Assembly (NCBI RefSeq): GCF_009674605.1
Contig: NZ_WKJO01000001.1
Coordinates: 2,232,001-2,296,000, forward strand
Length of the DNA: 64,000 bases
Source of the DNA: Haloferax litoreum
GTDB taxonomy: Archaea > Halobacteriota > Halobacteria > Halobacteriales > Haloferacaceae
Direction of reading: 5' to 3'
How positions within the stretch are numbered: the stretch's first letter is position 1; each line of letters opens with the position of its first letter. This document shows, one piece after another, positions 28,094-64,000 of the stretch. A program made the position numbers and the translations under genes. The notes beneath the pieces were generated by a model that ran no database searches, was not told where the DNA came from, and saw only the letters and a program-made list of their open reading frames with translations.

Positions 28094-28119
28094 CACTGTG
28101 ACCCGGAGAACGGGTCCAG
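28094..28119 (-). other. 23S processing stem, 5' half
   Basis: Pairs with 25148–25172 to form the long helix that brings together the 23S ends. The mismatch near its middle is compatible with the bulges required by splicing endonuclease. Confidence 0.8.
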
Positions 28120-28301: not shown

Positions 28302-28373
28302 TGGACCCACAGGGATTCGAACCCTGGGCATCCTCCTTGCAAAGGAGGCACTCTACCACTGAGCTATGGGCCC
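28302..28373 (-). tRNA. tRNA-Ala (anticodon UGC) in the 16S–23S spacer
   Basis: 72 nt; acceptor GGGCCCA pairs with TGGGTCC, discriminator A, no CCA encoded. Anticodon stem CTCCT/AGGAG with loop TTTGCAA (anticodon TGC). T-arm CAGGG-TTCGAAT-CCCTG. Standard position for archaeal rRNA operons. Confidence 0.95.
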
Positions 28374-28396
28374 CATGTCAGCCCTAGTAGTTCTAA

Positions 28397-28426
28397 GGTG
28401 TCCGAACGGATGGTGTTCGAACTCGG
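28397..28426 (-). other. 16S processing stem, 3' half
   Basis: TCCGAACGGAT and TTCGAACTCGGA here pair with the segment at 30023–30057 upstream of 16S, separated by a 4-nt internal bulge on each side: the bulge-helix-bulge pattern that releases pre-16S. Confidence 0.8.
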
Positions 28427-28469
28427 AAGATCGCGTGTGAGCCACCCCGTCGGGGTGGTCTCGGTCGTT

Positions 28470-29942
<1,473 letters not shown>

Positions 29943-32256: not shown

Positions 32257-33456
32257 TTAGACGTCTTCTGTCAGGACGTCTTTAACCACGTCCGGGTCTT
32301 CGAGCAACTGGTGTTTCGTGTAACTCCCTTCAGCACTACCGCCGCTGTGTTTGGACTGCTCGATGATGTCGAGGAACGCGTGTTCTTTGAGGAGGTCACG
32401 AACCCGCCGGAGAGAGAGGCTATCCGAACCCTGCTGTCGGCAGATGTTCTCGTAGACTTCGTACACACGACTCGTCCGGAAGCCATCCTGCTGTTGGTTA
32501 GACAGCGAGAGAATCGCCAGTGCTTGGAGAACGTAGCGTGAGTGCGGTGTCGAACCACGGATGAGTTCGCGGAATCGGTCTGTCTCTGCACGCTGGCGCG
32601 CCTGCGTGACGAAGTTCTCTTTCACCGTGCTCGCACCCATCGACTGTGCAATTTCGCCAGCGTACCGAAGGATGTCGATTGCCTTGCGGGCGTCCCCGTG
32701 TTCACGGGCGGCGAGTGCCGCGGCGCGGGGAATCGTCGAGGGGTCCAAGACCCCGTCGCGGAACGCGTCACTCCGGGCATCCATGATATCCCGCAGTTGG
32801 TTGGCGTCGTACGGGGGAAAGACGAACTCGCGTTCACAGAGACTGGATTTGACGCGTTCGTCCATTCGGTCTTTGTACTGAATCTTGTTGCTGATACCGA
32901 TGACACCGAGTTTGCACCCGGAAATCTTCCCCGCCTCACCCGCCCGCGAAAGTTGCATGAGAATATCGTCGTCGCTCAGTTTGTCGATTTCGTCGAGGAT
33001 GATGAGAACGACGTCGTAGAGGGCGTCGAGGATACGCCAGAGACGCTTGTAGTACGTCGACGTAGAGAGTCCTTTGTCGGGGACTTTGATGCCCGTGACC
33101 GCGGGGTCGTTGACGCTATCCGCGATTGTCTGGACGGCCTGCGTCTCTGTGGTGTCCTGTGCGCAGTCGACGTAGGCGAACATCGCCTTCACGCCTTCTT
33201 CTTCGGCAGTATCGACGAGTCGTTGTGAGACGTACTTCGCACAGAGTGACTTCCCCGTCCCCGTCTTCCCGTATATCAACACGTTGCTCGGACTCTGTCC
33301 GAAGATTGCAGGATTCACCGCCGTCGCGAGGTTCGAAATCTCGTCGTCGCGACCGACGATGCGACCCTCACCAGGGAGGTGATTGATCTCTAACAACTCC
33401 TTGTTAGCGAAGATGGGGTCCTCCCTGGTGAAGAGGTCGTCGCTGGCGTTAGGCAT
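32257..33456 (-). CDS. orc1: Orc1/Cdc6 replication initiator
   Basis: 399 aa. Binds ORB repeats and loads MCM at the adjoining origin. AAA+ domain: sensor-rich N-terminus with IVGRDDEI, Walker A GKTGTGKS, Walker B LIILDEIDKL, sensor 1 LGVIGISNK and the arginine-finger region DERVKSSL. The lid and a C-terminal winged helix (about residues 290–395: RYVLQALAILSLSNQQQDGFRTSRVYEVYENICRQQGSDSLSLRRVRDLLKEHAFLDII) follow. Length and layout fit haloarchaeal origin-linked Orc1. Start ATG 33456; two ORB repeats begin 10 nt upstream, so its promoter overlaps its own binding sites. Confidence 0.95.
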   Translation of the reverse strand: MPNASDDLFTREDPIFANKELLEINHLPGEGRIVGRDDEISNLATAVNPAIFGQSPSNVLIYGKTGTGKSLCAKYVSQRLVDTAEEEGVKAMFAYVDCAQDTTETQAVQTIADSVNDPAVTGIKVPDKGLSTSTYYKRLWRILDALYDVVLIILDEIDKLSDDDILMQLSRAGEAGKISGCKLGVIGISNKIQYKDRMDERVKSSLCEREFVFPPYDANQLRDIMDARSDAFRDGVLDPSTIPRAAALAAREHGDARKAIDILRYAGEIAQSMGASTVKENFVTQARQRAETDRFRELIRGSTPHSRYVLQALAILSLSNQQQDGFRTSRVYEVYENICRQQGSDSLSLRRVRDLLKEHAFLDIIEQSKHSGGSAEGSYTKHQLLEDPDVVKDVLTEDV

Positions 33457-35231: not shown

Positions 35232-35367
35232 GACGTGTCCCACTCCACCAGCACTCTCCTCTCCGATAGCACGTCTTACGTTTCGATAGCCTCCGTGTCG
35301 GATGCCTCTCTCGTTCGGGTACAGTCCGCGTGTCGCAAGCCGTTTCCCCCTCGCGTCCGTATCCGGG

Positions 35368-47944: not shown

Positions 47945-50900
47945 TTAGAGCGTGAACCGCGAGACGGTCGTTCCGGCCTTCGTCAGGTCGGTGTGTGTCG
48001 CGGCGGCGACGGTGACTTGATTCTCGCCGTACTCGATGGCGACTTCGACTTCGAACGACTCGTCTTCGGGTTCGACGAGCGTCGTCTCACCGGGCGTCTT
48101 CACCGCGGCGACGGCGGCGTCAGTCTGCCCGGAGACGACGAGTTTGTCGCCTTTGAAGCGGGTGCTCACGCGGAGACTCGGCCCGGACGGGCGGTCACGT
48201 TCGACGTAGCGTTCACGGACGAACGCCGGCGTCTCGACCGGTTCGCCGGCGTCGACACCGTGTGCGAGGCGAACGAACTGTGCCATCGACCACGCGAGTG
48301 GTGTCGCACTGCCGGTCCCTTCGCCGAACTCCCAGTTGAAGGCCGTCGAGTGTTCACGGTCCCAGACCTGTTCGGCCAACATTCGACCGGAGTTGGAGAA
48401 CGCTGCCATCGTCCGGAGGAGGTTCTTCGGCGCGAGTTTGCCCGCTTCGGTTCCGGCGATGAGTTCGTACTCACCACGCTCGCCGGTGAAGATTGGCCAG
48501 AGGCGACCCTTGCCTTTGGCGTCGATAGACCACGGGGCACCTTCTTCGTCGCGTTCGCGCTCACCGTAGCCGTCACCGTTGTAGCGGTAGAACGCCGGAC
48601 CGTGTGGCGTATCGACGCGAATCGTCTCGTCCGTCTCTTCGATGGAGTTGCGAATTATCTCGTCGTCGGCCGGTTTGATGCCGAGGCGTGTCAGTTCGAG
48701 GAACCCGCCGTCGATAATCTCGCGTTCGTCCAGCGTCGGGCCGTTGTTCGCCAGCGTCCGGAGGTGTCCGGCGTCGGGTTCGCCATCACGGGTGATGCGG
48801 ACGTAGTACGGCGTGTGCGTGTGGCGGTCGGTGCCCGTGCGGGTCGCGGTCCAGTCGTCCACGCGCTCGGCCCAATCGTCCGCGAGGGCGAGCCAGACCA
48901 AGGCGTCCTCGTCGTGGCCCTCATCGAGTGCGACGGCGGCCGCGCAGGCGAGCCCTGCGATTTCGGCCGCGATAGACGACGGCGAGTATCCGGCTTCTTC
49001 TTCCCATCGTTCCTGTGCAGTCGGCGGTCCGTTTCGAGCGACGTAGTCCGCAGACCGTTTGACGTTGACGTAGTCGTAGTCCACGTCGTCGAAGGTCACA
49101 CCGTGTTCTGTGAGCATGTACGCCATCACCTGCGGGAAGGAGATGTTGTCCATCTGCTCGCCGCCCCAGCGGGTCCGGCCGTTGAGGTAGGTGTTCTGCG
49201 GGATGAATCCCCGGTCGTCCTGCTGGTGCGTGTAGATGTATTCCAGCGCGTCGATGGACGTCTCGATGTCGCCGACAGCCTCGAAGACGGTGAAGACCTG
49301 ATAGAGGTCACGCGACCAGACGAAGTTGTACCCGTACCCCTTCGATTCCTCCGCAGGGACGACTTCGCCCCACGGAACCGACGGTGACGCGATGCCTGCG
49401 CCGAGGTAGGTCTTGTCCTCGACTGCCCGGAGACTCATCAGACAGGTCTTGTACTGTGCCGTGAGGTCAGGGTCGCTCGCGACCGAATCTGGGAGGTCTT
49501 TGTCCGAGAGGAACTCCTCCCACGAGTCGGTGTACGCTCCGCGAACCGTCTCGTAGCCACGAGTGAGCGCACCGGCGGCCTCGCCGAGCGCGGCGGCGGT
49601 GTCGGCGTGTTCGGCCAAGCCGAGTGCGAGCGTCTCCGAGAGGTCGTCGCCGGTCCCGATTCGTCCGACGAGGACGACGTTCTCGTCGTCGACGCGTTCT
49701 TGTGCGGTCGGCAGTTCGCCCTTGGAGAAGAACTCCGCGAGGTACTTCGACCCGGCGACGCCGACGGTGGCCCACTCGAATCGTCCGGCAGTAGTCAGTG
49801 CGATGGCGACGCTGTACTCCTGACCGTTCTCGTCGATGAGGAGCGTATCGCGTCCTTCACCGGCATCGAACGCGCCGGCGTCGCGTGCGACGAGGTGGTA
49901 ACTTCCGAGTTGGCCGAGACGGATACCCCGGTCTTTCGTTCCGGTGTTGGCCAGTGCCGTGTCGGCGACGGTGTACAGTTCGTACTCGCCGCCGTCGAAG
50001 GATTCGAACTGCACGTCCGCGAGCATCGCGTCGTGTTCGGGGTCGATGGTGTACTCGACGGTGAGTTCCCACTCGTGACCGCGGCCATCACCAGTCTCGG
50101 TGATGACGTGCCGGAACACGAGTGCGTCTTCGTCGACGATTTCGGCGCGTCGTTCGACGGTATCTGCGTGGTCGTCGCGTCGGGTCTCGTTGTGGGTCCG
50201 CGCCGTGTACTCGGCCTTCGGGTCGGCGTCGACGACGAGGAAGTCCAGCGTCCGGAGGTTCATCAAGTCGACACGCGGGAAGCGAACCTCGGTGAGTGCA
50301 CCTTCGGTGAGCGTGTACCAGAGTCGCGAGGGGTCTTCGGACCCGTGGTCGGCGACGGTGCCGATTCCGTACTTCTCACCGGTCGTCCACCGGGGTCGGT
50401 TCTCCGGGCCAGTCGGCGCGGGTTTCGGTGCCGGGAGCGCGTCGATTTCTGCGAGGATGGCTGTCGTCTCCATCCGAATCGCGTGTGGCCACCCGAGCGG
50501 TGTCGCACTGTCTGGCGTCCCGTCGTCGAACACTTGTTCGGCGAGGTAGCCTGCGTCCGTCGAGAATGGGCCGTCGGGTTGGAGCAGTTCGTAGAGGTTC
50601 GTCGCACGTTCGACGAACCGGCGTCCGTCCTTGCCGAGTCGGTCACAGAGGACGCCGAACTTCGCGGCGGCGTTGGCACCCCACGAGGTGGCGACAGACC
50701 AAACTTTCTCGCCGTCTTGTCCACCGGCACGCCAGTAGTCGTCTTCGAATCGGACCAACCCGGCCACGTCGCCGCGGGGGTTCCGGTACAGTCCTTTCAG
50801 CGTCGCCGCCATGTGCTTGACGAGGCGGTTCGCCGTCTCGGAGTCCACCTCTTCGATGTCGGCGTAGGCGTCCACGGCGTCGACGAGTGCGAAGGTGGCG

Positions 50901-52480
50901 GAGTCGAGTCTGTCGTCGCGTTCGCCGTTTCGGTCGAGGCGGAGCGCGTACACCTCTCTGTCTTCGTCCCACAGTTTGTCCAGTCCCTCGTACACGAGGG
51001 CCGCTTGTTCGGCGGCGTGTTCGCGCAACTCCTCGTTGAGTGGCGCGGTGGCGATGGTTGCGTACGCCTGCAAGAACGTCGCGGCCGTGTGTGTGAACCG
51101 ACCGGCCATGTTCTCCCACGCGTTCTGGCACGCCATCGGGAGGCCGTCGTCTTCCAGACTGCTGTCGAGTCCGGAGATGCCCGCCGCGATGGTCGAGCGG
51201 ATGCGGCCGACGAGTTCGTCGTCGAGTTCGTCACGACGCTCCGTGAGGACAGTCGCGAGGTAGGTCAGCACACTCGCCGTCTGGTCGGCCTGATACTCCC
51301 CGTCGCCGGCACCTTCGACACGGCCGTGTGCCCATCCGGGCGCGATGCTCCCGTCGACGGCCCAGACGCGGTGTGGCCACGTCCCGTCTTCGAGTTGCGT
51401 ACGACAGTAGAACTCGGCGCTGGTCGCGAGGCGGTCTGCGAGGCCGAGTTCGAACGCGTCGTCAGCGTGCGCGAGTGCGCGCGAGATTTCTGCGTCGTCT
51501 CGGAACCACGTGTACCCGTACCCACCCGAGTGGGCGTAGAACGGGTCGAACTCGGGGCCTGCGATGCGGGCGCCGCTGGGTGCAGTCAGGAGCGAGAGCG
51601 CACGGAGGTCTGACCGGACGATTCGTTCGCGGGGCGTCCCCTCGGGCACGTACACTTCTGCTTGTTCGCGTGCGGCCGCACGGAGTTCGTCGGCCGTCGC
51701 GTGTTGGAGTGCGCAGTGCTGGAGGTCCGCGAGTGCGTCAACCCGGTCCATCTCGCTGTGGTCGGAGAGTTGGGTGACGAGTGTCGTTCGTGCTGCCCGC
51801 CCATTCTGTTCGAGTGGGGCGCTGACGACCACGTCACCGGAGAGGTGCGTGTCTTCGTAGCTATTGAGGACTGCCTCACGGGGGAAGTCGAACACGTCGT
51901 CGGAGAGCATCTCGTCGAAGCGTTCGGGAATCTGGCCGCGAACGTCGTCGAGACCGGTCGATGCGGTGACGTAGTCGTGTTCGTCGCGATGGAACACCTC
52001 GACGGCTTGCGTCCCGTTGGGTCCGCCGTCCTGATGGATGAGTCGCCCGACTTGCGTCTCGCGCCCTTCGGGTGCGAGGGTGAGAAACGCGGTCAGGTGG
52101 GCGTCGGTCGGAATCGCACCGCGCAGTTCGACGTGTGTCACGTGCGCGCGACCGAGTGTCAGGTCGTACTGGTGGACGGTGTACTCGCCGGCGTCGTACT
52201 CGGTTTCGACGAGACTCGTCTCTCGATAGTAGTGCTGCCGGACGGATTCGAGTTCGTCGAACCAGTGTGTTTCGCCGTCTGTCTCGATACCGAACCGAGA
52301 GCGGTCGATTCCATAGAGGCCGGAGAGCGCAGACGAGTAATCGCGGAGAGACCCGTTGAGACCGACGAAGACGAGTCGGTCCCCATGGCCCGAGAACGCG
52401 CCATCCGAGGTCTGACACTCCTCTGGGAAGCGCCCACCCCGGTCACGCTTGAATTCGTTTAACGCGGTCCGAAGTCGCAT
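47945..52480 (-). CDS. Tandem GH15 glucoamylase/glucodextranase-like protein (1511 aa)
   Basis: Two GH15-type halves in one continuous frame. Half 1 (about 1–690): N-terminal beta domain, then (alpha/alpha)6 with SGGYGYTWFRDDAEISRALA, QNAWENMAGRFTHTAATFLQAY, SWGANAAAKFGVL, TDAGYLAEQVFDDGTPDSATPLGW. Half 2 (about 697–1511): glucodextranase-type N-domain (SRLWYTLTEGALTEVRFPRVDLMNLRTLDFLVVDA), then YNFVWSRDLYQVFTV, GFIPQNTYLNGRTRWGGEQMDN, WEEEAGYSPSSIAAEI (acid Glu near 1160), NWEFGEGTGSATPLAWSMAQF (base Glu near 1383) and a C-terminal beta domain. No signal peptide, so cytosolic. Likely removes glucose from alpha-glucan ends. Confidence 0.88.
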   Translation of the reverse strand: MRLRTALNEFKRDRGGRFPEECQTSDGAFSGHGDRLVFVGLNGSLRDYSSALSGLYGIDRSRFGIETDGETHWFDELESVRQHYYRETSLVETEYDAGEYTVHQYDLTLGRAHVTHVELRGAIPTDAHLTAFLTLAPEGRETQVGRLIHQDGGPNGTQAVEVFHRDEHDYVTASTGLDDVRGQIPERFDEMLSDDVFDFPREAVLNSYEDTHLSGDVVVSAPLEQNGRAARTTLVTQLSDHSEMDRVDALADLQHCALQHATADELRAAAREQAEVYVPEGTPRERIVRSDLRALSLLTAPSGARIAGPEFDPFYAHSGGYGYTWFRDDAEISRALAHADDAFELGLADRLATSAEFYCRTQLEDGTWPHRVWAVDGSIAPGWAHGRVEGAGDGEYQADQTASVLTYLATVLTERRDELDDELVGRIRSTIAAGISGLDSSLEDDGLPMACQNAWENMAGRFTHTAATFLQAYATIATAPLNEELREHAAEQAALVYEGLDKLWDEDREVYALRLDRNGERDDRLDSATFALVDAVDAYADIEEVDSETANRLVKHMAATLKGLYRNPRGDVAGLVRFEDDYWRAGGQDGEKVWSVATSWGANAAAKFGVLCDRLGKDGRRFVERATNLYELLQPDGPFSTDAGYLAEQVFDDGTPDSATPLGWPHAIRMETTAILAEIDALPAPKPAPTGPENRPRWTTGEKYGIGTVADHGSEDPSRLWYTLTEGALTEVRFPRVDLMNLRTLDFLVVDADPKAEYTARTHNETRRDDHADTVERRAEIVDEDALVFRHVITETGDGRGHEWELTVEYTIDPEHDAMLADVQFESFDGGEYELYTVADTALANTGTKDRGIRLGQLGSYHLVARDAGAFDAGEGRDTLLIDENGQEYSVAIALTTAGRFEWATVGVAGSKYLAEFFSKGELPTAQERVDDENVVLVGRIGTGDDLSETLALGLAEHADTAAALGEAAGALTRGYETVRGAYTDSWEEFLSDKDLPDSVASDPDLTAQYKTCLMSLRAVEDKTYLGAGIASPSVPWGEVVPAEESKGYGYNFVWSRDLYQVFTVFEAVGDIETSIDALEYIYTHQQDDRGFIPQNTYLNGRTRWGGEQMDNISFPQVMAYMLTEHGVTFDDVDYDYVNVKRSADYVARNGPPTAQERWEEEAGYSPSSIAAEIAGLACAAAVALDEGHDEDALVWLALADDWAERVDDWTATRTGTDRHTHTPYYVRITRDGEPDAGHLRTLANNGPTLDEREIIDGGFLELTRLGIKPADDEIIRNSIEETDETIRVDTPHGPAFYRYNGDGYGERERDEEGAPWSIDAKGKGRLWPIFTGERGEYELIAGTEAGKLAPKNLLRTMAAFSNSGRMLAEQVWDREHSTAFNWEFGEGTGSATPLAWSMAQFVRLAHGVDAGEPVETPAFVRERYVERDRPSGPSLRVSTRFKGDKLVVSGQTDAAVAAVKTPGETTLVEPEDESFEVEVAIEYGENQVTVAAATHTDLTKAGTTVSRFTL

Positions 52481-52653
52481 AGAGGTAGACGTTGGTCTCG
52501 AACCATAAGTATTGGCCGCTCGTCGCCCATCTTACCTCTATTCTTAGTAAACTTTCGTACCCTTTCTGACGACGGGGTAGGGGCCGTCTGCCGACTAAAC
52601 AAGTATTCTCACGGGAGTAAATACAAAGTCACCCGGTACGTTCTACTGTACAT
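52481..52653. promoter_or_regulatory. Divergent promoter of the glucan genes
   Basis: 173 nt between the GH15 gene (minus) and GH13 gene (plus). It contains TATT-CTCACGG-GAGTA at 52604–52619, one mismatch from the haloarchaeal TrmB operator (TACT-N7-GAGTA), and several AT-rich TATA-like runs (GTAAACTT, GTAAATACAAA). Only the spacing and motif are evidence; no binding is shown. Confidence 0.4.
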
Positions 52654-54672
52654 ATGCATCACCCAGGACCGCCGCAGTTCATGGCTGTCGGTGAGTCAGT
52701 CCAACTTGCACCGCGCGACCCAGCACCCGACGCCGAGTACGCGTGGCGCGTTCGAAGCGCGCCCGTCGCCAGCAGCCTCGAACTCGCCGAAGACGAGGCG
52801 GTCGTCCAGTTCGACCCCGACGCCGCGGGAACCTACGTCCTCGAACTCGACGCCCCGGATGGCACCCACACGCTGACCATCCGTGTCTTCCCCGGTTCGT
52901 ACCTTCCCGCGGGGTCGGTCCGAAGCGGGGCCAGCGGGATGAGCGGAATGAGCGGTTACAGCGGCCAGAGCGGGTCTGCCCGGCCGACGCAGGTCAGCGG
53001 TGGCGCGTCAGGGTCCGGAAGCGGTGCCGATGAGGCCCAGCGTGGCGACGGGGGGCGCCCACGCATCCGTCTCGATGCCACCGTCGAAGACGACGTGGTC
53101 GTCGTTCGTGCCGACCCACAACCGAACCCGAACAGTGAGACCGACCGCGACGACCTGGTTGTCGAGTTCGTCGTCGACGACCGGGACGAAGTAGACGAGA
53201 CTGCCGTCGAGACCGACGGCTGGGAACTCCGTGTTCCGCTCTCGGCTATCGGTGACAGACTTCGCGTCCACGCCGTCGCCATCGACGAGACGTACAGCGT
53301 CCCCGACACCGTCACCGTCGAACGCGATGCGCTGACCGACGGTGGCGTCGCGGAGACCGAAGTTGAAGCGAAGAGTCAAGCCGACGGCTCTGGCGCGCAG
53401 TCAGCGTCCGTCTCCCGCCCCAACGACCCACCAAAGTGGGCACAGGAGGTGACCCTCTACGAGATTTACGTCCGGGGCTACGCCTCTGACGACGACGAGG
53501 CCGACAACACCTTCGAGGCACTCGAAAAGCGACTCGACTACCTCGAATCGCTCGGCGTCGACTGCCTGTGGTTGACTCCTGTCCTCCAGAACGACCACGC
53601 GCCCCACGGCTACAACATCGTGGACTTCTACTCCATCGCGGAGGACCTCGGCACCCGAGAAGACTACGAGCAGTTCGTCGAGGCCGCCCACGACCACGGG
53701 ATGAAGGTCCTCTTCGACCTCGTTTTGAATCACTCGGCGCGCGACCACCCGTTCTTCGAGGACGCGTACAAGAACCCCGACTCCGACTACTACGACTGGT
53801 ACGAGTGGCAGGACAACGGTGAACCGGGCACCTACTTCGACTGGGAGTTCATCGCAAACTTCGACCACCGGAACCTCGACGTTCGACGCTACCTCCTCGA
53901 CGCCGTGGACATGTGGGCCGACGTGGCCGACGGATTCCGCTGCGACATGGCGTGGGCCGTCCCCGACACCTTCTGGCAGGAGATTCGTGAACGCGTCAAG
54001 TCGAAAGACCCCGAGTTCCTCCTTCTCGACGAGACCATTCCGTACATCGCCGACTTCCACGAGGGGATGTTCGACATGCACTTCGACACGACGCTGTACT
54101 TCACGCTCCGGCAGGTCGGCCGCGGCGACGAACCCGCCGAGCGCATCCTCGACGCCATCGACCAGCGTGCCGAAGTCGGCTTTCCCGACCACGCGGCGTT
54201 CATGCTCTACCTCGAAAACCACGACGAGACGCGCTACATCGTCGAGTGCGGTGAGTCCGAAGCGATGGCCGCCGCGGGCGCACTCTTCACGCTCCCCGGC
54301 GTCCCGATGGTCTACGGCGGCCAAGAGATTGGTCAGCGCGGACGCCGCGACGCCCTCGCGTGGAAGCACGCCCGCGACGACATCCGCGACCACTACGAGC
54401 GACTCATCGAGGTCCGCGACGAGACGCCTGCACTCCGATACAATGGGTCGTTCCGGCGCATCGACTACGAGGCTGACTCCGACCGCGTCGTCGCGTTCGT
54501 CCGCGACCACGACGACGGGTCGTATCTCTGCGCGCTGAACTTCAGCGACGACCCGGTCACGGTCGACGTCGGTGACCTCGCAGTCGACGCCACGGACATC
54601 GTCTCCGGCGACTCCATCGCCGCCGAAGGTGGCCTTCGCGTCGACGACGTTGCAATCTGCCCCCTCGCCTGA
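52654..54672 (+). CDS. GH13 alpha-amylase-family glycosidase with Ig-like N-domain
   Basis: 672 aa; starts MHHPGPPQFMAVGESVQLAP. Residues ~10–90 form a beta domain, then a SG-rich spacer (SGASGMSGMSGYSGQSGS), a second beta domain (~130–225), and the GH13 barrel from about 265. Catalytic residues: Asp431 (GFRCDMAW), Glu460 (LLDETI), Asp524 (ENHDET). YEIYVRGYASD and FDLVLNHSARDHP are regions I/V-like. No signal peptide; a cytosolic maltodextrin/cyclodextrin-type enzyme such as haloarchaeal MalA is the closest functional comparison. Divergent from the GH15 gene; 42 nt before the next glycosidase. Confidence 0.85.
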   Translation: MHHPGPPQFMAVGESVQLAPRDPAPDAEYAWRVRSAPVASSLELAEDEAVVQFDPDAAGTYVLELDAPDGTHTLTIRVFPGSYLPAGSVRSGASGMSGMSGYSGQSGSARPTQVSGGASGSGSGADEAQRGDGGRPRIRLDATVEDDVVVVRADPQPNPNSETDRDDLVVEFVVDDRDEVDETAVETDGWELRVPLSAIGDRLRVHAVAIDETYSVPDTVTVERDALTDGGVAETEVEAKSQADGSGAQSASVSRPNDPPKWAQEVTLYEIYVRGYASDDDEADNTFEALEKRLDYLESLGVDCLWLTPVLQNDHAPHGYNIVDFYSIAEDLGTREDYEQFVEAAHDHGMKVLFDLVLNHSARDHPFFEDAYKNPDSDYYDWYEWQDNGEPGTYFDWEFIANFDHRNLDVRRYLLDAVDMWADVADGFRCDMAWAVPDTFWQEIRERVKSKDPEFLLLDETIPYIADFHEGMFDMHFDTTLYFTLRQVGRGDEPAERILDAIDQRAEVGFPDHAAFMLYLENHDETRYIVECGESEAMAAAGALFTLPGVPMVYGGQEIGQRGRRDALAWKHARDDIRDHYERLIEVRDETPALRYNGSFRRIDYEADSDRVVAFVRDHDDGSYLCALNFSDDPVTVDVGDLAVDATDIVSGDSIAAEGGLRVDDVAICPLA

Positions 54673-54714
54673 GTACCTCTCGACAACCCTCTGTCAGCTG
54701 TTCACCCATTCACG

Positions 54715-57195
54715 ATGAGCACGAAATACGGCACCCCGACGCTCCTATCCGACCGTACGGACGACCTCGTCTCGTGGTACGAGACGGTCGTTGCGAACTA
54801 CGACGACACTTTCGAGGCCGCGAAAGAACTCTCGACACGACTCGGTGCGCACGTCAGCGACGACGCCGTCGAGTTCGGCTTCTGGACGCCCGAACTCGTC
54901 GAAGACGGCGTTCCTACCGACGCCGTCGAACTCGAGATACTGACGCCGCCTGCGGACCTCGACCCCGGCGAGACTGACCACCGTCAGGTCTCCTTCCAGC
55001 GTGACCGCATCTCGATGGAACGCGCCGGCGATTACCACTGGGCAGTCGTCGAAGGCGTCCGCGCGGGGACACGCGACACGCTCGGGTCACTTTACCAACT
55101 CGTCTACGAGGACGACGACGGTGAGGAACACACGATTCAGGACCCTGTCTCCTACTCCGTCCCGTTCGGTGCGTTCGCGCCCGCAGAGGTGTACGACCTG
55201 ACCGTTCTCGACGAGACGCGCGCCGACCGAGAATACTTCGAGGCCCTCGGTACCGACGACGAACGCGTTTCGACCACCGAAGACGACGGCCTCCCGCGCA
55301 TCGGCCCCGCGACGAGCATGCTGGAGATTCACCCCGGAACCGCCACCGAACGCGGGTCGCTCGCCGGCCTCGCCGAGGTGTACGAAGACATCGCCGCCAA
55401 ACAGCGCGCCGGCGACGACCTCGACCCGTGGGAACGCGCCTTCGCCGGGTACGACGGCATTCAGGTGATGCCCGTCGAACCGCTGACCGAGAACGAAGAA
55501 GAACACGACTTCTGGTCGGTCGAATCCACGTCCGACGACGCACTCGACGTCGAAGTCGCACGCCCCGAGATGATAAACTGGGGCTACGACATCGTCGTCA
55601 GCGCCTTTTCTGCGCCGAACCCGGCCATCCTCGAAACCGGCCGCCCGGACGAACTCGTGGACTTCATCGCCGCGTGCCACGACCTGCCGCGACCCATCAA
55701 AGTCGTCTTCGACGTGGCACTCGGCCACGCCGACGACAGAGGTGCGGAACTCCTCTCCGACCGATACATCCTCGGCCCGGGGATGTACGGCAAGCACCTC
55801 GACTACACCGAACCGACAGCGCGTGCCGTCTTCCTCGAGATGCAGCGCCGGAAGATGGACTTCGGCGCCGACGGGATTCGCGTCGACGGCGCGCAGGACT
55901 TCACCTCCTACGACCCCGAAACCAGCGAAATGTACCACGACGACGACTTCCTCGCCGAGATGGACCGCGTCACACAGGAAGTCGCCGGCACAGAGTACCG
56001 GCCGTGGATGGTTTACGAGGACGGCCGTCCGTGGCCACGCGAAGACTGGGAACTCGCCTCGTCGTACCGTGCGCTCATCGAACAGCACCCCCACTCGTTC
56101 CAGTGGTCGCCCATCACGTTCGCGCACAACACGCCCGCACTGCTCACGTTCTGGGCGACGAAGTGGTGGCGTGTTCGCGAAGTCGGCGAGTTCGGCGGCA
56201 ACTGGTTGACGGGCGTCGCCAACCACGACACTGTCCGCCGCGGGACGCAAATCGACCCGACGGTGGAGTTCAACCAGTCGCCGGTCAACCCCTACCTCGG
56301 TGAGGACTACCCCGAGACGCTCGACGAAGCGTACGACAACGCCGCGTCGTCGATGCTGTTCCACTGCTTCCTCCCGGGCGTTCCGATGGACTTCGTCCAC
56401 GCCAACATGCGCGCCCCGTGGGGTTTCATGCGCGACACCGACCCGACGTGGAACGTCAAAGTCGTCTCCGACGAGTCGAAGTTCCTCTACTGGCAGGTGC
56501 GCGACGAGGACTTCGAAGACGACCGGTTCTTCCCCCGTGTGAAGAACCTCGGATTCGAGTCGCGTGAGGAACTCCTGACGTTCATGAACGCCCTCTCGTC
56601 TGCCGTCGGTGCGACCGACTACGACCTCGACGTGATGGCCGACATGCTCTCGGCGATGGACCAACCGCTCGGTGACGACCTTTCTGCGTCAGACCTCGAA
56701 GCCTACGGTTACGCGTGGATGCGCGACATCCACGAGTTCGCCAACCTGAGCCACTGGCACGACGCCCAGGACGACGAGCGCTCGGCGTACCGCCTCCAGA
56801 CGAGAGAATTCCGCCACGACCGCCCGTGGCTACTGGCCGACCTCGACGAAGACGAGGACTACTTCACCTACCGTCACCCGACCGACGGGACGGTCCTCTA
56901 CTACGGATTCCGGAACTCCCCGGACGGGGTCTCCGCAAGCGAAGCGAGCGGAGGCTCGTCGGACTCGCTCCGCTCGTCCGACGGTGACGAACAACTCCTG
57001 TTCGCCGCGAACATGGAGGGCGTCCCGGTCGAAGTCTCACCCGAGTACCTCGCCGCCGACGCCGCCGAAGACGACAACGCACCCGAGATTCCGACCGACG
57101 GATGGGAACCGGCCCTCGTCGCGCCCGGCGTGGACGAGTCTACGGAAGTCGAAATCGCGAACGGGCAGGCAATCGTCTGGCGGCGCGAACCGTAG
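54715..57195 (+). CDS. GghA-like alpha-amylase-superfamily glycosidase (glucosylglycerol hydrolase type)
   Basis: 826 aa. N-terminal beta domain (~1–170), then a barrel with distinctive IVVSAFSAPNPAILETGRPDELVDFIAACHDLPRPIKVVFDVALGHADDRGAELL, YILGPGMYGKHLDYTEPTARAVFLEMQRRKMDFGADGIRVDGAQDF (nucleophile Asp391), PWMVYEDGRP (Glu435) and VANHDTVRRG (Asp505). These sets match glucosylglycerol-hydrolase-type GH13 relatives from memory; sucrose- or glucan-acting alternatives remain. Near 743–760 an ASEASGGSSDSLRSSDGDE low-complexity insert interrupts the C-terminal beta domain. Starts ATG 54715, 42 nt after the GH13 gene, likely the same operon. Confidence 0.72.
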   Translation: MSTKYGTPTLLSDRTDDLVSWYETVVANYDDTFEAAKELSTRLGAHVSDDAVEFGFWTPELVEDGVPTDAVELEILTPPADLDPGETDHRQVSFQRDRISMERAGDYHWAVVEGVRAGTRDTLGSLYQLVYEDDDGEEHTIQDPVSYSVPFGAFAPAEVYDLTVLDETRADREYFEALGTDDERVSTTEDDGLPRIGPATSMLEIHPGTATERGSLAGLAEVYEDIAAKQRAGDDLDPWERAFAGYDGIQVMPVEPLTENEEEHDFWSVESTSDDALDVEVARPEMINWGYDIVVSAFSAPNPAILETGRPDELVDFIAACHDLPRPIKVVFDVALGHADDRGAELLSDRYILGPGMYGKHLDYTEPTARAVFLEMQRRKMDFGADGIRVDGAQDFTSYDPETSEMYHDDDFLAEMDRVTQEVAGTEYRPWMVYEDGRPWPREDWELASSYRALIEQHPHSFQWSPITFAHNTPALLTFWATKWWRVREVGEFGGNWLTGVANHDTVRRGTQIDPTVEFNQSPVNPYLGEDYPETLDEAYDNAASSMLFHCFLPGVPMDFVHANMRAPWGFMRDTDPTWNVKVVSDESKFLYWQVRDEDFEDDRFFPRVKNLGFESREELLTFMNALSSAVGATDYDLDVMADMLSAMDQPLGDDLSASDLEAYGYAWMRDIHEFANLSHWHDAQDDERSAYRLQTREFRHDRPWLLADLDEDEDYFTYRHPTDGTVLYYGFRNSPDGVSASEASGGSSDSLRSSDGDEQLLFAANMEGVPVEVSPEYLAADAAEDDNAPEIPTDGWEPALVAPGVDESTEVEIANGQAIVWRREP

Positions 57196-57280
57196 GTAGG
57201 CGCTCCGGCCCGTTCTCGGGTCGCTAGTGACGAAATCCACCGGGCGAACGGTTTACTCGCTGCGGTTGCAACTGCTCTCT

Positions 57281-57778
57281 ATGCTCGACGTTGGCGACAG
57301 CGCGCCCGATTTCTCCGTCCCCATCGCAGGCGGCGAGGTGTACAACGACATCAGTTCGTTCACGCTCAGTGATGCACTCGGCGACGGGCCCATCGTCTTG
57401 GCGTTCATCCCGGCGGCGTTCACCAGCGGATGTACGACGGAGATGTGTACGTTCCGGGATTCGATGCACCGGTTCGACGCCCTCGACGCACAGGTCTACG
57501 GCATTAGCGTCGACCTCCCGCCGGCATTGAATATCTTCATCCAGCAAGAGGAACTCAACTTCCCCATGCTCTCTGACTGGAGACACGAGGTCATCCACGA
57601 CTACGGCGTCGTCCTCCCCGACATGTACGACCTCTTCGAAGTCGCCAAACGGAGCATCTTCGTGCTCGATTCGACGGGGACCGTGACGTATCGGTGGGTC
57701 GAGGGCGAGGGCAAGACCGACTACGGCGCGGCTATCGACGCGGTGTACGACGCCGTCGCCGAGACTGTTTCCTCGTAA
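57281..57778 (+). CDS. Peroxiredoxin/redoxin (AhpC-TSA family)
   Basis: 165 aa from ATG 57281 (MLDVGDSAPDFSVPIAGGEVYNDI); an upstream GTG would add 18 residues lacking the fold. APDFSVP, then FIPAAFTSGCTTEMCTFRDSM with the peroxidatic Cys in TSGCT (second Cys five residues later), and IQQEELNFPMLSDWRHEVIHDYGVVLPDMYDLFEVAKRSIFVLDSTGTVTYRW. Matches BCP-like peroxiredoxins. Reduces peroxides with thioredoxin-type donors. Follows the glycosidase by 85 nt, unrelated. Confidence 0.87.
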   Translation: MLDVGDSAPDFSVPIAGGEVYNDISSFTLSDALGDGPIVLAFIPAAFTSGCTTEMCTFRDSMHRFDALDAQVYGISVDLPPALNIFIQQEELNFPMLSDWRHEVIHDYGVVLPDMYDLFEVAKRSIFVLDSTGTVTYRWVEGEGKTDYGAAIDAVYDAVAETVSS

Positions 57779-58369: not shown

Positions 58370-58921
58370 CTACGGCTGGAGCACACCGTTTATGACGTGG
58401 ATGACGCCGTTCGAGGCCACGAGGTCCGTGCCGACGATGTTCGCTTGCCCGTCGTTCAGTTCGGGTCCGTCGACGCCGATTTTCGCGCCGTTCAGCGTGG
58501 GCAGTTTCGACACGGGCAGGACTGACTGCGCTGTGCGCCGACCGGGGACGACGTGGTAGAGGAGGATGTTCACCACGTCAGCGAGAGTCAAGCCACCGGG
58601 AAGGTTTCCGCTTTCGATTGCGTCGAGGACATCATCTTCGTCCAGGTCGTCCTCGGCGAGTTCGCTAAACAGGGTAACGAACGAATCGTCAGTCGGCGCG
58701 AACACCGTTAGCTGTCGGTTGCCGCTGAGTGCGCCGTCGAGTTCGGCGGCGACGACTGCCGCGACGAGAATATCGAACCGGTCGTCACCTGACGCGATAT
58801 TCACGATAGTGGGCCCGTCACGAGGTGGTTTCGCACTCGCCACACCCGCCCCGCCTGCGAGGAGAAGTCCTGCGCCACCAATCGTCTTCAGCACCGCCCG
58901 TCGGTCAGGATTGAACGTCAT
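58370..58921 (-). CDS. Tat-exported fasciclin (FAS1) domain protein
   Basis: 183 aa from ATG 58921 (MTFNPDRRAVLKTIGGAGLLLAGGAGVASAKPP). The twin-arginine signal (DRRAVLKTIGG, hydrophobic core, AxA cleavage) precedes a single FAS1 domain: TIVNIASGDDRFDILVAAVVAAELDGALSGNRQLTVFAPTDDSFVTLFSEL, LTLADVVNILLYHVVPGRRTAQSVL and IGVDGPELNDGQANIVGTDLVASNGVIHVINGVLQP. Cell-surface adhesion or matrix interaction is the family's general role. Exported in folded form, as usual for haloarchaea. Standalone gene. Confidence 0.9.
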   Translation of the reverse strand: MTFNPDRRAVLKTIGGAGLLLAGGAGVASAKPPRDGPTIVNIASGDDRFDILVAAVVAAELDGALSGNRQLTVFAPTDDSFVTLFSELAEDDLDEDDVLDAIESGNLPGGLTLADVVNILLYHVVPGRRTAQSVLPVSKLPTLNGAKIGVDGPELNDGQANIVGTDLVASNGVIHVINGVLQP

Positions 58922-59004
58922 TACGTCTCTCTTGACGGTTCTTCGAATCATATCCGCAGTACCTGACTAGTTAGGAACGAACCGAACTGATGTGAGACGG
59001 GGTT

Positions 59005-61293
59005 TCAGACGACTGTTGCATTCGTCTCGACCGACACGCCCGGCAGGTACTCGCCGTCAGGGCCGACCCACTCGCCTTCGGTTCCGCAGTCGGTGGTCAG
59101 TCGGCAGACGCGCGTCTCCGGTGGCCAGACGACGCGAACGTCGCCACCCGACCGTTCGACGGAGACGGTCTGTCGATACGTCACCGTCTCTCCGAAGTCG
59201 CCGACGTAGGTCACGAGGAGTGCGACTTCGCTCGCACCGGAGGGTATCGAGACTCGCTCGGGACCGGCCGCCTGCGGGTAGTTCGTCACGCGGACACCGT
59301 CAGTCGTGATATCCCACTCGATGGTGTGGGTCTCGCCCATCGGAACGTCGTACCGCGCGTACTCGTCGCCCGCTTCGACGCGGACGGAGACGGTGTTGCT
59401 TCCGGCGGGCGTGCCGAGCGTCGTCGTCGCATCGACGCGGTCACCCGAGAGAACATCCAGACGGGTCAACTCCGGTTCGACGGGGTCCACTGCCCCGGTC
59501 CACGCTCCTCGATACGTAAAGCGGTACGGCGTCCGATTCGTCGCGTCCACGACGGTGAAGTCCTGTTCGGCACCGTCGTCGATGGCGTAGACGACAGGTC
59601 CGTCGAATCCGGGGTCGTTACGGAGGGTCTGGAACGGATGGGCCGACCAGTCGCCGTACGGGTCGGGGTGGAAGACGAGTGCCTTCGTCTCGTCGTTACC
59701 GTCGCTCGCTCCACCTGTCCCGACTGCCGGAACCGACGGCGTCAGCGGTGGGTCTTCGAACCCTGCGTCGAGGAGTGGTTCGTACGTCGCTGCGAGGTTC
59801 TCAGTTCGGAGGCGATTCTCGTCGTACGGGTCGCCTGCGGCATCGAGAGTGACGCCGCCGGCGACGAGTGCCGAGACGAGCAGGACGGAGAAAACGACGC
59901 CACGCGCCTCAGAAGCCGAAAATCGGCGGTGTGCGAGGCGTCGCAGGACGCGAGCGAATCCGAGGATTCCGGCCGCACCGAAGGCGGCGAGTGGGACGAG
60001 GGCGTCGAAGTGGTAGAACGGCCCGAGGAGGTCGATGAGGCCGTTTCGGAGGCCGTTGTGCGTCCCCCAGAAGAAGGCGTTGCCGACGAACACCGAGACG
60101 AAGACGCCGAGCAGAATCGCCGCCAGTGCGTCGTCGGACAACTCAGCGAACGCCCTCTTGCGTCCGCCGAGGCCGTGGTAGCGCCGCCTGTCACTTCCCC
60201 GAAGGCTTCGGCCGGTCCGGTGTCGCCACCATCGCTGGGCCGTGAGGCCGAGGCCGACGACGGCGGCGACGGTTCCGAGCCACCCCATCGGTCCCCAGCG
60301 AGTCACGAGCAACCGGAGTGCCTCGATAGCAGTTTGGACACCCAGCGTGGGCGTGAACACGATGTCGTAGCCGAGTATCGCTCGCCGACCGAACCCGATG
60401 CCGTCGAGAGGGGCGAAGGCGATGTACGGGAACCTGAGGGGGTCGCCGGTCACGACGGCGTTGTACGCGAGGGTCAGGCCGACGAAGGCGAGTCCGGGGA
60501 GAGCGATGGCGACGTAGCGGCGGAAGACGGGCCACCCGGTTCCGGCCTGCCACGCACTGGCGAGTGCCCACAGCGAGTGCGCGATGAACGGAAGCGCGAA
60601 CAAGACGGCTGTGTACGGGCGTGCGAAGAACGCGAGGCCGACGAGTGCGCCGGCGACGACGGCGTACCCCGACGAGTCGCGTCGGGCGGCCCTGACGTAG
60701 CAGACGGCGAACGCGAGGTTGAGCATCGTCGCCGGTGCGTACGCGAGGAACGTCGCCGACGTGAGGAGAAACAGCGGCGAGAGGACGAGCAGGGCCGCGG
60801 CGACGACGCCAGTTTCGCGGTCGAATACGTCTGCGGTAAGCGTGTAGACGAGACCGGCGTTCGCGGCAGCGACAGCACCCAAGACGAGGTTCGGCAGACC
60901 GACAGCCAACCCGAGTGCGAACATCGCTGGGACCACGGGCGAGTACTTCGAGTACATCTGCACGCCGCCGGGTGCACTCGTCGTCGCTTCGACGACGAAG
61001 AACCACGGCCTGACCGCGTCGGCGAGCGCACCGGGGTAGAGGAACACCTTCCCGTCCAAGAGCATTGCTGCCTGTGTGAGGTAGACGCCTTCGTCGTCGT
61101 TGACCGAGTGGAAGGGAAAGAGGTCCACTGCGAGCCACGTCACGAAGAGACCGACGACGAGCGAGACGACGAGCGCGACTGCTCGATGGCGCGTTCGCTC
61201 GCGGTCGAAATCGAACGAGAAGGGGTGGTCGAAACTGACGTCGAAGCCCAAATCGAGGTCGATGTCTGGAATACGGGACCCGCGCCGACCCAT
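59005..61293 (-). CDS. Multi-TM GT-C-like glycosyltransferase with extracellular beta domain
   Basis: 762 aa. About ten TM helices in the first ~480 residues (for example AVALVVSLVVGLFVTWLAVDLF), an extracellular loop with HSVNDDEGVYLTQAAMLLDGK, i.e. the acidic DD/DE motif of GT-C/ArnT-like enzymes, and a C-terminal ~230-residue beta-rich domain containing NRTPYRFTYRGAW and SVETNATVV. Probably transfers sugars from lipid carriers onto proteins or lipids at the cell surface. The C-terminal domain is typical of haloarchaeal DUF7846-type proteins by recollection. It is directly next to the ABC transporter (2 nt from its stop), sharing a transcript direction. Confidence 0.65.
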   Translation of the reverse strand: MGRRGSRIPDIDLDLGFDVSFDHPFSFDFDRERTRHRAVALVVSLVVGLFVTWLAVDLFPFHSVNDDEGVYLTQAAMLLDGKVFLYPGALADAVRPWFFVVEATTSAPGGVQMYSKYSPVVPAMFALGLAVGLPNLVLGAVAAANAGLVYTLTADVFDRETGVVAAALLVLSPLFLLTSATFLAYAPATMLNLAFAVCYVRAARRDSSGYAVVAGALVGLAFFARPYTAVLFALPFIAHSLWALASAWQAGTGWPVFRRYVAIALPGLAFVGLTLAYNAVVTGDPLRFPYIAFAPLDGIGFGRRAILGYDIVFTPTLGVQTAIEALRLLVTRWGPMGWLGTVAAVVGLGLTAQRWWRHRTGRSLRGSDRRRYHGLGGRKRAFAELSDDALAAILLGVFVSVFVGNAFFWGTHNGLRNGLIDLLGPFYHFDALVPLAAFGAAGILGFARVLRRLAHRRFSASEARGVVFSVLLVSALVAGGVTLDAAGDPYDENRLRTENLAATYEPLLDAGFEDPPLTPSVPAVGTGGASDGNDETKALVFHPDPYGDWSAHPFQTLRNDPGFDGPVVYAIDDGAEQDFTVVDATNRTPYRFTYRGAWTGAVDPVEPELTRLDVLSGDRVDATTTLGTPAGSNTVSVRVEAGDEYARYDVPMGETHTIEWDITTDGVRVTNYPQAAGPERVSIPSGASEVALLVTYVGDFGETVTYRQTVSVERSGGDVRVVWPPETRVCRLTTDCGTEGEWVGPDGEYLPGVSVETNATVV

Positions 61294-61295: not shown

Positions 61296-62453
61296 TCAGT
61301 CCGAGTAGAGACCGGTCTCAGGGCGCTGTTCGCGCGGGAACCACGCGAGTTCGTGGCCCGCGTCGAGGGTCACTTCGACGCGGCCGTCGGTCGGGACCGT
61401 CTCGTCGTGGTTGTGCATACACAGCAGGTTGTCGCCGCCGTCGAGGGCGACTTCGTAGAGAATCGTCGGTCCGAGGTAGCGCTTGCCGACGACTTCTCCG
61501 TGGCCCGCACCGTCGCAGGCGTGGGCGGACACGTCGTCCGGGCGGACGAGGATGTCGATGTCCGTCTCGTCGTACTCCGGGGCGAGGCCGTGAATCTGGT
61601 CGCGAGCGACCGGGCCGAGTTCGGTCTCGACCACGCCGCCGGAGATGCGACCGGGGAGGAAGCCAGCGTAGCCGAGGAAGCCGGCGACGAACCGCGACTC
61701 GGGGTGCTGGAAGACCTGTTCGGGTTCGCCAATCTGTTCGAGGTCACCGTCGTTCATCACGGCGACGCGGTCCGAGATGGACATCGCCTCTTCCTGGTCG
61801 TGCGTGACGGAGATAGCCGTCACCCCCGCTTCCTTGAGGATACGACGGACTTCTTCGCGCATCTGGACGCGGAGGTCGACGTCGAGGTTCGAGAAGGGTT
61901 CGTCGAGGAGCAAAATCGCGGGTTCGGGCGCGAGCGACCGGGCGAGGGCGACACGCTGCTGTTGGCCGCCGGAGAGTTCGTCCGGGTAGCTTCCGCCCTG
62001 CGCTTCGAGGCCCACGAGGTCGAGCAGTTCCTCGACACGGGCGTCACGCTCGGTCTCGCTCAGGTCCTTCAGGCCGAAGGCGATGTTCTCCGCGGCGGTG
62101 AGGTGCGGGAACAGCGCGAACTCTTGGAACACGACGCCGACACCTCGCTCTTCGGGTGCGACGAACGAACCGTTGCCCGACACGGGACTGCCGTTCAGGC
62201 GAATCTCGCCGCCGTTGGGCCGGTCGAGGCCCGCGATGAGGCGCAATGTCGTGGTCTTGCCGCACCCGGACGGACCGAGGAGTGTGAGAAGTTCGCCCTC
62301 TTCGACGGCGAGCGAGAGGTCTTCGATGACCGTCTCTGTCCCGTAGGACTTCGCGACGCCGTCCAGTTCGAGGACGGCACTGGTGTCGGTGTCTGTGTGC
62401 GACATCTGTTGGGTGTCGGAGTGTTCGGTGGTCGAAAGTGTACTATTTGACAT
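61296..62453 (-). CDS. ABC transporter ATP-binding protein (Fe3+/polyamine/sulfate-type)
   Basis: 385 aa. Walker A GPSGCGKTT, Q-loop, signature LSGGQQQRVALARSL, Walker B ILLLDEPFSNLD and H-loop VTHDQEEAM. A ~130-residue C-terminal TOBE-type region (PILE..., DILVRPDDVSAHACDGAGHGEVVGKRYLGPTILYEVAL) is typical of FbpC/PotA/CysA families. Start ATG 62453; inner ATG 62405 would give 369 aa. It overlaps the permease by 11 nt, so they are translationally coupled. The GT-C gene follows at 61293. Confidence 0.9.
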   Translation of the reverse strand: MSNSTLSTTEHSDTQQMSHTDTDTSAVLELDGVAKSYGTETVIEDLSLAVEEGELLTLLGPSGCGKTTTLRLIAGLDRPNGGEIRLNGSPVSGNGSFVAPEERGVGVVFQEFALFPHLTAAENIAFGLKDLSETERDARVEELLDLVGLEAQGGSYPDELSGGQQQRVALARSLAPEPAILLLDEPFSNLDVDLRVQMREEVRRILKEAGVTAISVTHDQEEAMSISDRVAVMNDGDLEQIGEPEQVFQHPESRFVAGFLGYAGFLPGRISGGVVETELGPVARDQIHGLAPEYDETDIDILVRPDDVSAHACDGAGHGEVVGKRYLGPTILYEVALDGGDNLLCMHNHDETVPTDGRVEVTLDAGHELAWFPREQRPETGLYSD

Positions 62454-64000
62454 CGTATCCCTCTTGCGTGATGATGACGAGCATCGAGAGCCCGGAGACG
62501 AACAGCAGGATGAGTGCGGGCACAGCGGCCTGCCCGAAGTAGCCTGCCGCGTAGGCCGTCCAGATGTGCGTCACGAGCGTCTTGAACCCCGCAGGACGCA
62601 GGAGGAGCGTCGCCGGGAGTTCTTTCATGGTGGTCAGGAAGACCAGCGCCGCGCCTCCGAGGAGGCCGGGCGCGACGAGGGGGAGCGTCACGTGACGGAA
62701 CGCTCCCGACGGCGTCTCTCCGAGCGTCCGCGCCGCCTCCGGCAGTGCGGGGTCGACGCGAAGGAACGACGCGCGGAGCGACCCGACCGCTTGCGGGAGG
62801 AAGCGAATGACGTAGGCGAAGACGAGGAGATAGAGCGTCTGGTAGATGGGCGTCGCGTAGGAACTGCCGAAGAAGACCAGCGCGAGGCCGAGGACGACGC
62901 CGGGAACCGCATAGCCGACGTAGGTGGCGCGCTCGAACACCGAACTCACCCGAGATGGGTGGCGTGCGGCGAGGTACGCGACGGGGAGGCCCACCAGCGT
63001 CGCCGCGCCCGCCGTCGCAGCAGCGACGAGAACGGAGTTGAACGCGTATTCCGGTTGGAACGCGAGCGACTGACTCGTCTCGGCGACACCCTGTGCGAAC
63101 CACGTGAGCAGGATGCCCAGCGGGACGACGAGCGCAACCGCCGCGACGAGGGCGGCGAACCCGATTGCCGGATACTTCCAGCGACCGAGGCGCATCACGC
63201 TGCCCGACCGGCCGCCTGTCGTCGTCCGCTCGTCGCCACGAATCTGCGATTCGAGCGTGAGGATGAGGAGCGTCACAGCGACGAGTTGCAGCGACAGGAG
63301 CGTCGCAGTGTCGCGGCCGAACGACCCGAACTCCACGTAGATGACGCGGGTGAACGCGTCGAACTTCATGATGGCGGGCGTCCCGAAGTCCGAGAGTGCG
63401 TAGAGTGCCGCGAGGAGCGCTCCGGCGGCGACTGCGGGCCGAATCTGCGGGATGGTGACCCGCTTGAATGCCTCTCCACGGGTGTGGTTCAGCGTCCGCG
63501 CGGCGTCGATGAGCGTGGTGTCCATCGACTTCAGCGCGGCCCGGGTGGTGATGAACACGTACGGGTACGTGTAGAGCGTCAACACTAAAACGGCTCCGGG
63601 AAGCCCGTAGATTTCGGGGAGCGATTCGACCCCGAACGGTTCGAGCAGGCGCTGGAAGACGCCTTGCGGACCGAACGCCGACACGAACGCGAACGCGCCG
63701 ATGTAACTCGGGATGACGAGTGGGAGCGCGATGACGATAGTCCAGAAGCGCTTGAACGGCAGGTCGGTCCGGACGGTGAGATACGCCAGTGGGACGCCGA
63801 GTGCGACACACGCCGCCGTCACGAGGACGACGAGGACCGTACTGTTCAGGAAGACTTCGACTGTCGTCGGTCGGGTGACGAGCGCAAGTGCGTCCGAGAA
63901 CCCGACGTCGAGCGCCGATTTGACCAGCCACAACAGCGGGACGATGACGGCGGCAGCGACAGCACCGCTCGCGATAGTCAGACCGAGCGGTTGCTCGTCT
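62443..64000 (-). CDS. ABC transporter permease, FbpB type (5' end outside window)
   Basis: The gene is open to the right edge: the reading frame continues past position 64000 without a stop, and the first visible bases read EQPLGLTIASGAVAAAVIVPLLWLVKSALD. So the internal TTG at 63933 is not the real start. It encodes at least 518 residues of a fused double permease with two sets of six or more TM helices, typical of Fe3+ permease FbpB, containing EAxxxG-like loops (ARTLNHTRGEAFKRVTIPQIRPA and EAARTLGETPSGAFRHVTLPLVAPGLLGG). Its substrate-binding protein probably lies beyond the edge. Confidence 0.88.
   Translation of the reverse strand, partial: DEQPLGLTIASGAVAAAVIVPLLWLVKSALDVGFSDALALVTRPTTVEVFLNSTVLVVLVTAACVALGVPLAYLTVRTDLPFKRFWTIVIALPLVIPSYIGAFAFVSAFGPQGVFQRLLEPFGVESLPEIYGLPGAVLVLTLYTYPYVFITTRAALKSMDTTLIDAARTLNHTRGEAFKRVTIPQIRPAVAAGALLAALYALSDFGTPAIMKFDAFTRVIYVEFGSFGRDTATLLSLQLVAVTLLILTLESQIRGDERTTTGGRSGSVMRLGRWKYPAIGFAALVAAVALVVPLGILLTWFAQGVAETSQSLAFQPEYAFNSVLVAAATAGAATLVGLPVAYLAARHPSRVSSVFERATYVGYAVPGVVLGLALVFFGSSYATPIYQTLYLLVFAYVIRFLPQAVGSLRASFLRVDPALPEAARTLGETPSGAFRHVTLPLVAPGLLGGAALVFLTTMKELPATLLLRPAGFKTLVTHIWTAYAAGYFGQAAVPALILLFVSGLSMLVIITQEGYDVK

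Follow-up and report, generated by a model that had tools for sequence, protein, structure and literature searches.

A conserved gene cluster for a cytosolic α-amylase, a fused double GH15 protein and a GHL5-family protein in Haloferax litoreum, and the candidate roles of its GHL5 member

Three glycosidase genes that lie together in the genome of Haloferax litoreum raise the question of which glucoside the cell degrades with them: a glucan of its own, a glucosylated solute or a sugar taken up from outside. The genes are part of a stretch of 64,000 nucleotides (contig NZ_WKJO01000001.1, positions 2,232,001 to 2,296,000; referred to as the window, the coordinates of which are used below) of a 3.56 Mb, 98.1% complete genome with a Haloferax-like chromosome; the closest named GHL5 relatives are those of Haloferax profundi and Hfx. 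marinum. The cluster comprises the following features.

47945–52480, minus strand: fused tandem GH15 protein, 1511 residues
52481–52653, between the divergent genes: intergenic region of 173 bp with two conserved promoter-like elements
52654–54672, plus strand: MalA, GH13 cytosolic α-amylase, 672 residues
54715–57195, plus strand: GHL5 (PF14872) GH13-fold hydrolase, 826 residues

The open reading frames and profile matches bear out the description of 47945–57195 in an earlier note on this DNA as encoding dual GH15, GH13 and GghA-like glycosidases, with the correction that the two GH15 units are not separate proteins but halves of one fused 1511-residue polypeptide. Third-position GC is 0.79–0.84 in all three frames. 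The absence of signal peptides was likewise confirmed using N-terminal hydrophobicity (15-residue Kyte–Doolittle mean over the first 60 residues) and a check for the twin-arginine motif: none of the three N-termini resembles an export signal, with maximum means of 0.65 (double GH15 protein), 0.56 (MalA) and 0.35 (GHL5), compared with 1.66 plus an RR motif for a fasciclin protein and 2.74 for a membrane glycosyltransferase from the same window. The former comparator (58370–58951, minus strand) contains a fasciclin domain and carries a twin-arginine export signal; the latter (59005–61293, minus strand) is a membrane protein of PMT_2 type with a DUF7846 domain, and its gene adjoins the cluster in many Haloferax-type loci.

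Elsewhere in the window, a low-GC stretch free of open reading frames is explained by a complete archaeal rRNA operon (16S, tRNA, 23S, 5S; 24947–29942, minus strand). A gene for an Orc1/Cdc6 protein (32260–33456, minus strand) lies beside this operon, with a possible replication origin nearby, and an XPB/RAD25-type helicase is encoded at 35302–37401 (plus strand). An ABC ATPase (TOBE_2) and a permease in which BPD_transp_1 matches two stretches (61299–63933, minus strand) could be of the iron or thiamine type rather than of a sugar type.

The N-terminal half of the fused protein (residues 1–686) consists of a β-sandwich and an (α/α)6 GH15 domain, and the C-terminal half (residues 687–1511) of a Glucodextran_N domain (216.6 bits), a GH15 domain and a weak tail resembling glucodextranase domain B (17.5 bits, under the cut-off of 27). 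The GH15 profile PF00723 scores 40.5 bits in the N-terminal half and 118.6 bits in the C-terminal half (cut-off 22), and neither half reaches an NCBIfam equivalog cut-off (537.2 of 741.9 and 168.4 of 820.7 bits), the former score being that for the glucan 1,4-α-glucosidase equivalog TIGR01535. Arthrobacter glucodextranase (1ug9; E 3.7e-132) and a bacterial glucoamylase (1lf6; E 3.3e-102) both align best with the C-terminal half, over most of its length. The AlphaFold2 model of the N-terminal half (mean pLDDT 81.4, pTM 0.82) superimposes on dextran dextrinase 9ju0 (Z 35.7, rmsd 4.1, 571 residues), glucoamylase 1lf6 (Z 34.2, rmsd 4.3, 563 residues) and glucodextranase 1ug9 (Z 32.0, rmsd 3.7, 555 residues), with the matches spanning both the β-sandwich and the helical barrel.

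Candidate catalytic pairs are Glu456/Glu648 in the N-terminal half and Glu1160/Glu1370 (Glu474/Glu684 in C-half numbering) in the C-terminal half. A profile alignment of one half with the other places Glu456 and Glu648 on Glu474 and Glu684, and the C-terminal pair aligns with Glu438/Glu636 of 1lf6 (1lf6 positions counted from the alignment), which we take to be the glucoamylase catalytic pair. None of these glutamates varies among the 22 sequences aligned for each half. Since the invariant glutamates align and the GH15 fold is present in both halves, both look active from sequence and model. One half resembles bacterial glucoamylases and glucodextranases and the other a divergent GH15, each with a presumed linkage preference. 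HVO_1711 of Hfx. volcanii, the C-terminal half of which matches Clostridium glucoamylase as it does here, is already in print as a glucoamylase candidate (PMC8305020); that account, in the portions available, leaves the N-terminal half without a role, whereas the N-terminal half of the present protein, compared with it by description, is a second complete GH15. The Hfx. volcanii control genome also contains Glucodextran_N.

MalA scores 1131.5 bits against the equivalog NF041321 (cut-off 875). Its catalytic triad is Asp431, Glu460 and Asp524, with a cysteine beside the nucleophile (FRCD); the triad motifs and this cysteine are present in 33 of 33 aligned relatives. A cysteine in this position is described for the subfamilies GH13_48 and GH13_49, of which the Haloarcula-like MalA forms one (PMC11239784). 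With a score above the equivalog cut-off, its cysteine directly before the nucleophile and no export signal, the present protein shows no notable difference from the known MalA α-amylases, such as those of Haloarcula japonica and Haloferax alexandrinus. Haloarcula japonica MalA is described as cytosolic or intracellular (PMC7490331, PMC11239784), which together with the signal-less N-termini supports the earlier suggestion of a cytosolic α-glucan module.

Two AT-rich blocks are conserved across 11 aligned intergenic regions and are placed as one haloarchaeal core promoter per direction; this placement is based on the spacing of leaderless promoters in haloarchaea. The element CATAAGTATTGG at about 52504–52515 is read on the minus strand for the double GH15 gene, roughly 25–35 bp upstream of its start, and GTAAATACAAAG at about 52617–52628 is read on the plus strand for malA and the GHL5 gene, a GTAAA..CAAAG block lying some 27–38 bp upstream of the MalA start. 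From their position and conservation, we infer a promoter function for both of these promoter-like elements. The proposal of one divergent promoter thus holds for a divergent intergenic region with promoter-like elements but not for a single promoter, the 11 regions rather suggesting two promoters face to face. The motif TACT-N7/8-GAGTA, presumably the TrmB-type operator, has no match anywhere in the window. The malA stop is separated from the GHL5 gene by 42 bp. Of the 34 loci with the same order, 33 have a gap between about −16 and 159 bp and one has a gap of 580 bp. Because the genes are closely spaced or overlap in most loci, a single transcript is suggested, and malA and the GHL5 gene are probably co-transcribed. 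A peroxiredoxin gene (57227–57778, plus strand) lies 31 bp behind the GHL5 gene and occupies the same place only in the closest named loci (L003 and L004).

The GHL5 protein matches PF14872 with 746.1 bits over profile positions 2–766 of 809 (cut-off 23.7). Its candidate triad (Asp391, Glu435 and Asp505) lies within GH13-like motifs and is invariant in 35 haloarchaeal GHL5 proteins, these being 35 of the 40 available rows (L039, in which GH15 and GHL5 are split into several frames, and L013, L020, L029 and L035 were left out, as they were from the tree described below), and also in a seven-sequence set that includes a bacterial GHL5. The model (mean pLDDT 77.3, pTM 0.84) has a GH13-type fold, with near ties in Z among its neighbours pullulanase 3wdi (Z 16.8, rmsd 3.7, 512 residues), trehalohydrolase TreZ 2bhu (Z 16.5, rmsd 3.6, 497 residues) and branching enzyme 8zqa (Z 16.1, rmsd 3.8, 510 residues) at 10–19% identity; the fold does not give the function. 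Sequence searches with the single protein (one match, E 0.42) or with a profile identified no credible solved GHL5 relative. A net acid fraction of 0.136 marks an acidic halophilic protein.

In the GTDB family (170 genomes), Glucodextran_N occurs in 141 genomes, MalA above the cut-off in 129 and GHL5 in 61, with 60 of the latter over the cut-off. With the match in G004 (20.6 bits to PF14872, below the cut-off) excluded, GHL5 and MalA are no more than 3 kb apart in 52 of 60 genomes; this count may be slightly low, as G144 (L057) has a broken MalA frame beside GHL5, and another miss, G161, involves a contig of only 5342 bases. GHL5 is found in 55 genomes of a 392-genome sample of the order and in 11 of the 15 genomes of the genus; it is lacking from the Hfx. 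volcanii control, and the four genus genomes without it keep the double GH15 gene and malA (L058 is one such intact pair locus). In 34 of 39 named haloarchaeal loci, among them some assigned to Haloferacaceae, Natrialbaceae and Natronomonadaceae, malA precedes the GHL5 gene in the same orientation and the double GH15 gene is divergent; in the exceptions (L021, L022, L023, L032 and L041) GHL5 lies apart from both. A tree of 43 GHL5 proteins gathers 28 of the malA-linked ones in a single supported group and places the malA-linked L019 and L033 among unlinked proteins, so that the linkage appears to be old or to have arisen more than once. Thus, the double GH15/MalA pair is ordinary, near-universal in the taxonomic family and represented by members already in print, and GHL5 joins it in some genomes as an optional third member. 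No account of the conserved three-gene arrangement was found in the open-access literature searched.

What substrate the enzymes act on was approached through the synthesis genes of the same genome. Profile searches of this genome returned no match to GT5 (PF08323), GT3 (PF05693), GT20 (PF00982) or GH57 (PF03065), and its three PF00128 GH13 genes, none of which encodes a branching enzyme, are malA and a tandem TreC-like pair. No GH13 genes other than malA and this pair (L060, 10337–12097 and 12197–13936, plus strand) were found in the genome. The combination of synthase and branching enzyme that makes up a glycogen metabolism module was therefore not found in this genome. The earlier note had called for a check for glycogen or glucosylglycerol synthesis genes, and neither is evident; its reading of turnover of an internal glucan or a glucosylated solute is only partly borne out and is not supported as the principal one. 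Self-made glucosylglycerol was rejected as the main substrate, GT20 being absent and not tracking GHL5 among the relatives, and glycogen turnover is weakened by the missing GT5, GT3, GH57 and branching enzyme. Nor is the proposed connection with salt-in osmoadaptation specific to this module, given a near-universal double GH15/MalA pair and a GHL5 distribution unrelated to that of GT20.

Because synthesis of neither branched glycogen nor glucosylglycerol is evident, imported maltodextrin is the simplest substrate, and we consider it likely that the enzymes of the cluster saccharify imported maltodextrins in the cytosol, GHL5 acting as an accessory α-glucoside hydrolase. As in its characterised relatives, MalA would cut maltodextrins internally; MalQ, which is encoded elsewhere in the genome, would re-shuffle the chains; and the fused double GH15 protein, with its GH15 folds, catalytic glutamates and presumed linkage preference, would trim chain ends to free glucose. 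GHL5 would remove a small α-glucoside arising in the same pathway, either glucosylglycerol or a short α-glucan. The missing synthesis genes make an imported maltooligosaccharide likelier than a store built by the cell itself, and the families and catalytic residues of all three proteins appear intact in sequence, consistent with a saccharification unit. No obvious sugar ABC operon and no maltodextrin importer were identified in the window or in the neighbourhood of malQ. No secreted GH13 protein was found among the three PF00128 genes (MalA judged by hydrophobicity, the other two by eye), and the cell would therefore depend on oligosaccharides made by others.

Turnover of a self-made storage α-glucan by the three enzymes appears unlikely. 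Their apparently cytosolic location would suit it, as would the eight GT4 matches in the genome, one of which is to a protein with the glycogen synthase TIGR02149 as its best NCBIfam match, and an unusual GT4 synthase may make a linear glucan. No GT4-match protein reaches the glycogen synthase cut-off, however (best 99.8 of 302.4 bits), and in addition to the missing GT5, GT3, GH57 and GH13 branching enzyme, the PF08323 matches found in 10 of the 170 relatives are weak and partial. It is very improbable that the three genes merely adjoin one another and have no role in common, and a chance arrangement is set aside, because the same order recurs in 34 of the 39 named loci, including loci from three families, even though GHL5 is missing from four genomes of the genus that keep the pair.

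The role of GHL5 within the cluster was weighed separately. Breakdown of glucosylglycerol depends on Slr1670 (GghA), a GHL5 protein, and the occurrence of homologues in halotolerant Archaea was pointed out in 2016 (PMC5002435). In most glucosylglycerol-producing cyanobacteria gghA sits with ggpS (PMC6753628, PMC10873239), and glucosylglycerol hydrolysis is the only GHL5 function given in the portions of the literature consulted (PMC5002435, PMC6753628). The present protein belongs to the same Pfam family over nearly its full length and has invariant GH13-type catalytic residues; in contrast to GghA, it has no GT20/ggpS partner in its own genome, is linked to α-amylase and glucoamylase genes and is an acidic halophilic protein. 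Among the 170 genomes, 15 contain both GHL5 and GT20, 45 only GHL5, 21 only GT20 and 89 neither (Fisher p 0.43). Most of the 15 are drafts; GHL5 and GT20 share a contig in two of them, with the nearest 639 kb apart. This genome thus has no match to the GT20-type synthase whose co-location or co-occurrence would mark a GghA, and the 170 genomes show no association between the two. This separation of GHL5 from glucosylglycerol synthesis was not encountered in the open-access literature searched.

A bacterial GHL5 that is 43% identical is encoded on the Rhodobacteraceae SC52 plasmid pSC52_1, as the last gene of the operon glgP-glgB-glgC-glgA-glgX-malQ-GHL5, 12 bp after malQ. As in the haloarchaeal locus, GHL5 lies directly downstream of an α-glucan enzyme gene; the operon encodes a complete bacterial glycogen pathway, whereas the haloarchaeal genome has no glycogen synthase match. 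Searches outside archaea yielded no GHL5 on viral contigs and, on plasmids, this one Rhodobacteraceae record and weak partial matches elsewhere, which leaves pSC52_1 as the single example of a bacterial operon context. Among haloarchaeal loci without a malA link, L050 has GHL5 2–4 kb from malQ and a double GH15 gene. In five genomes of one genus (L051–L055) GHL5 is far from malA with no obvious sugar genes nearby, and its conserved neighbours are a heavy-metal-ATPase-like gene and a channel- or transporter-like gene; Haloarcula-type loci have neighbours that are common only in part (labels by eye in both cases).

These contexts tentatively suggest that GHL5 could be an α-glucan enzyme, such as a hydrolase or transferase acting on short chains or branch points, with glucosylglycerol cleavage a cyanobacterial specialisation of GHL5. 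The gene stands in operon position, behind malA in haloarchaea and behind malQ where the glg operon is complete; at L050 it is near malQ and a double GH15 gene, and the modelled fold neighbours are TreZ, branching enzyme and pullulanase, all of which points in this direction. These neighbours share only the fold, however, the bacterial context is single and the loci L051–L055 do not fit. It is possible, if somewhat doubtful, that GHL5 is instead a true GghA, cleaving glucosylglycerol scavenged from brine cyanobacteria or algae or leaked as a solute, and standing beside glucose-releasing enzymes as its product would be glucose. The full-length PF14872 match and the requirement for the GHL5 protein Slr1670 in glucosylglycerol breakdown (PMC5002435) favour a true GghA, while the lack of association with GT20, with none close in the 15 genomes that have both, and the α-glucan enzyme neighbours in archaea and one bacterium speak against it.

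A further, rather improbable option is that GHL5, encoded right behind malA, acts in metabolite repair during starch catabolism and splits the by-product glucosylglycerol back to glucose and glycerol. Transglucosylation onto glycerol is carried out by retaining α-glucosidases and amylases, and glycerol is important in brines; in glycerol-rich cells such enzymes would move glucose onto glycerol and so produce dead-end glucosylglycerol. If this were so, the chemistry of GghA would have served α-glucan metabolism and its osmolyte role in cyanobacteria would be a separate use.

The locus adds the description of a giant double GH15 enzyme, the N-terminal half of which has no assigned role in the available portions of the earlier account (PMC8305020). 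It also offers a genetically tractable haloarchaeal setting for the role of GHL5/GghA where no glucosylglycerol synthesis gene is found. Should GHL5 prove to be an α-glucan or repair enzyme, the label 'glucosylglycerol hydrolase' transferred by family membership would be misleading in Halobacteria.
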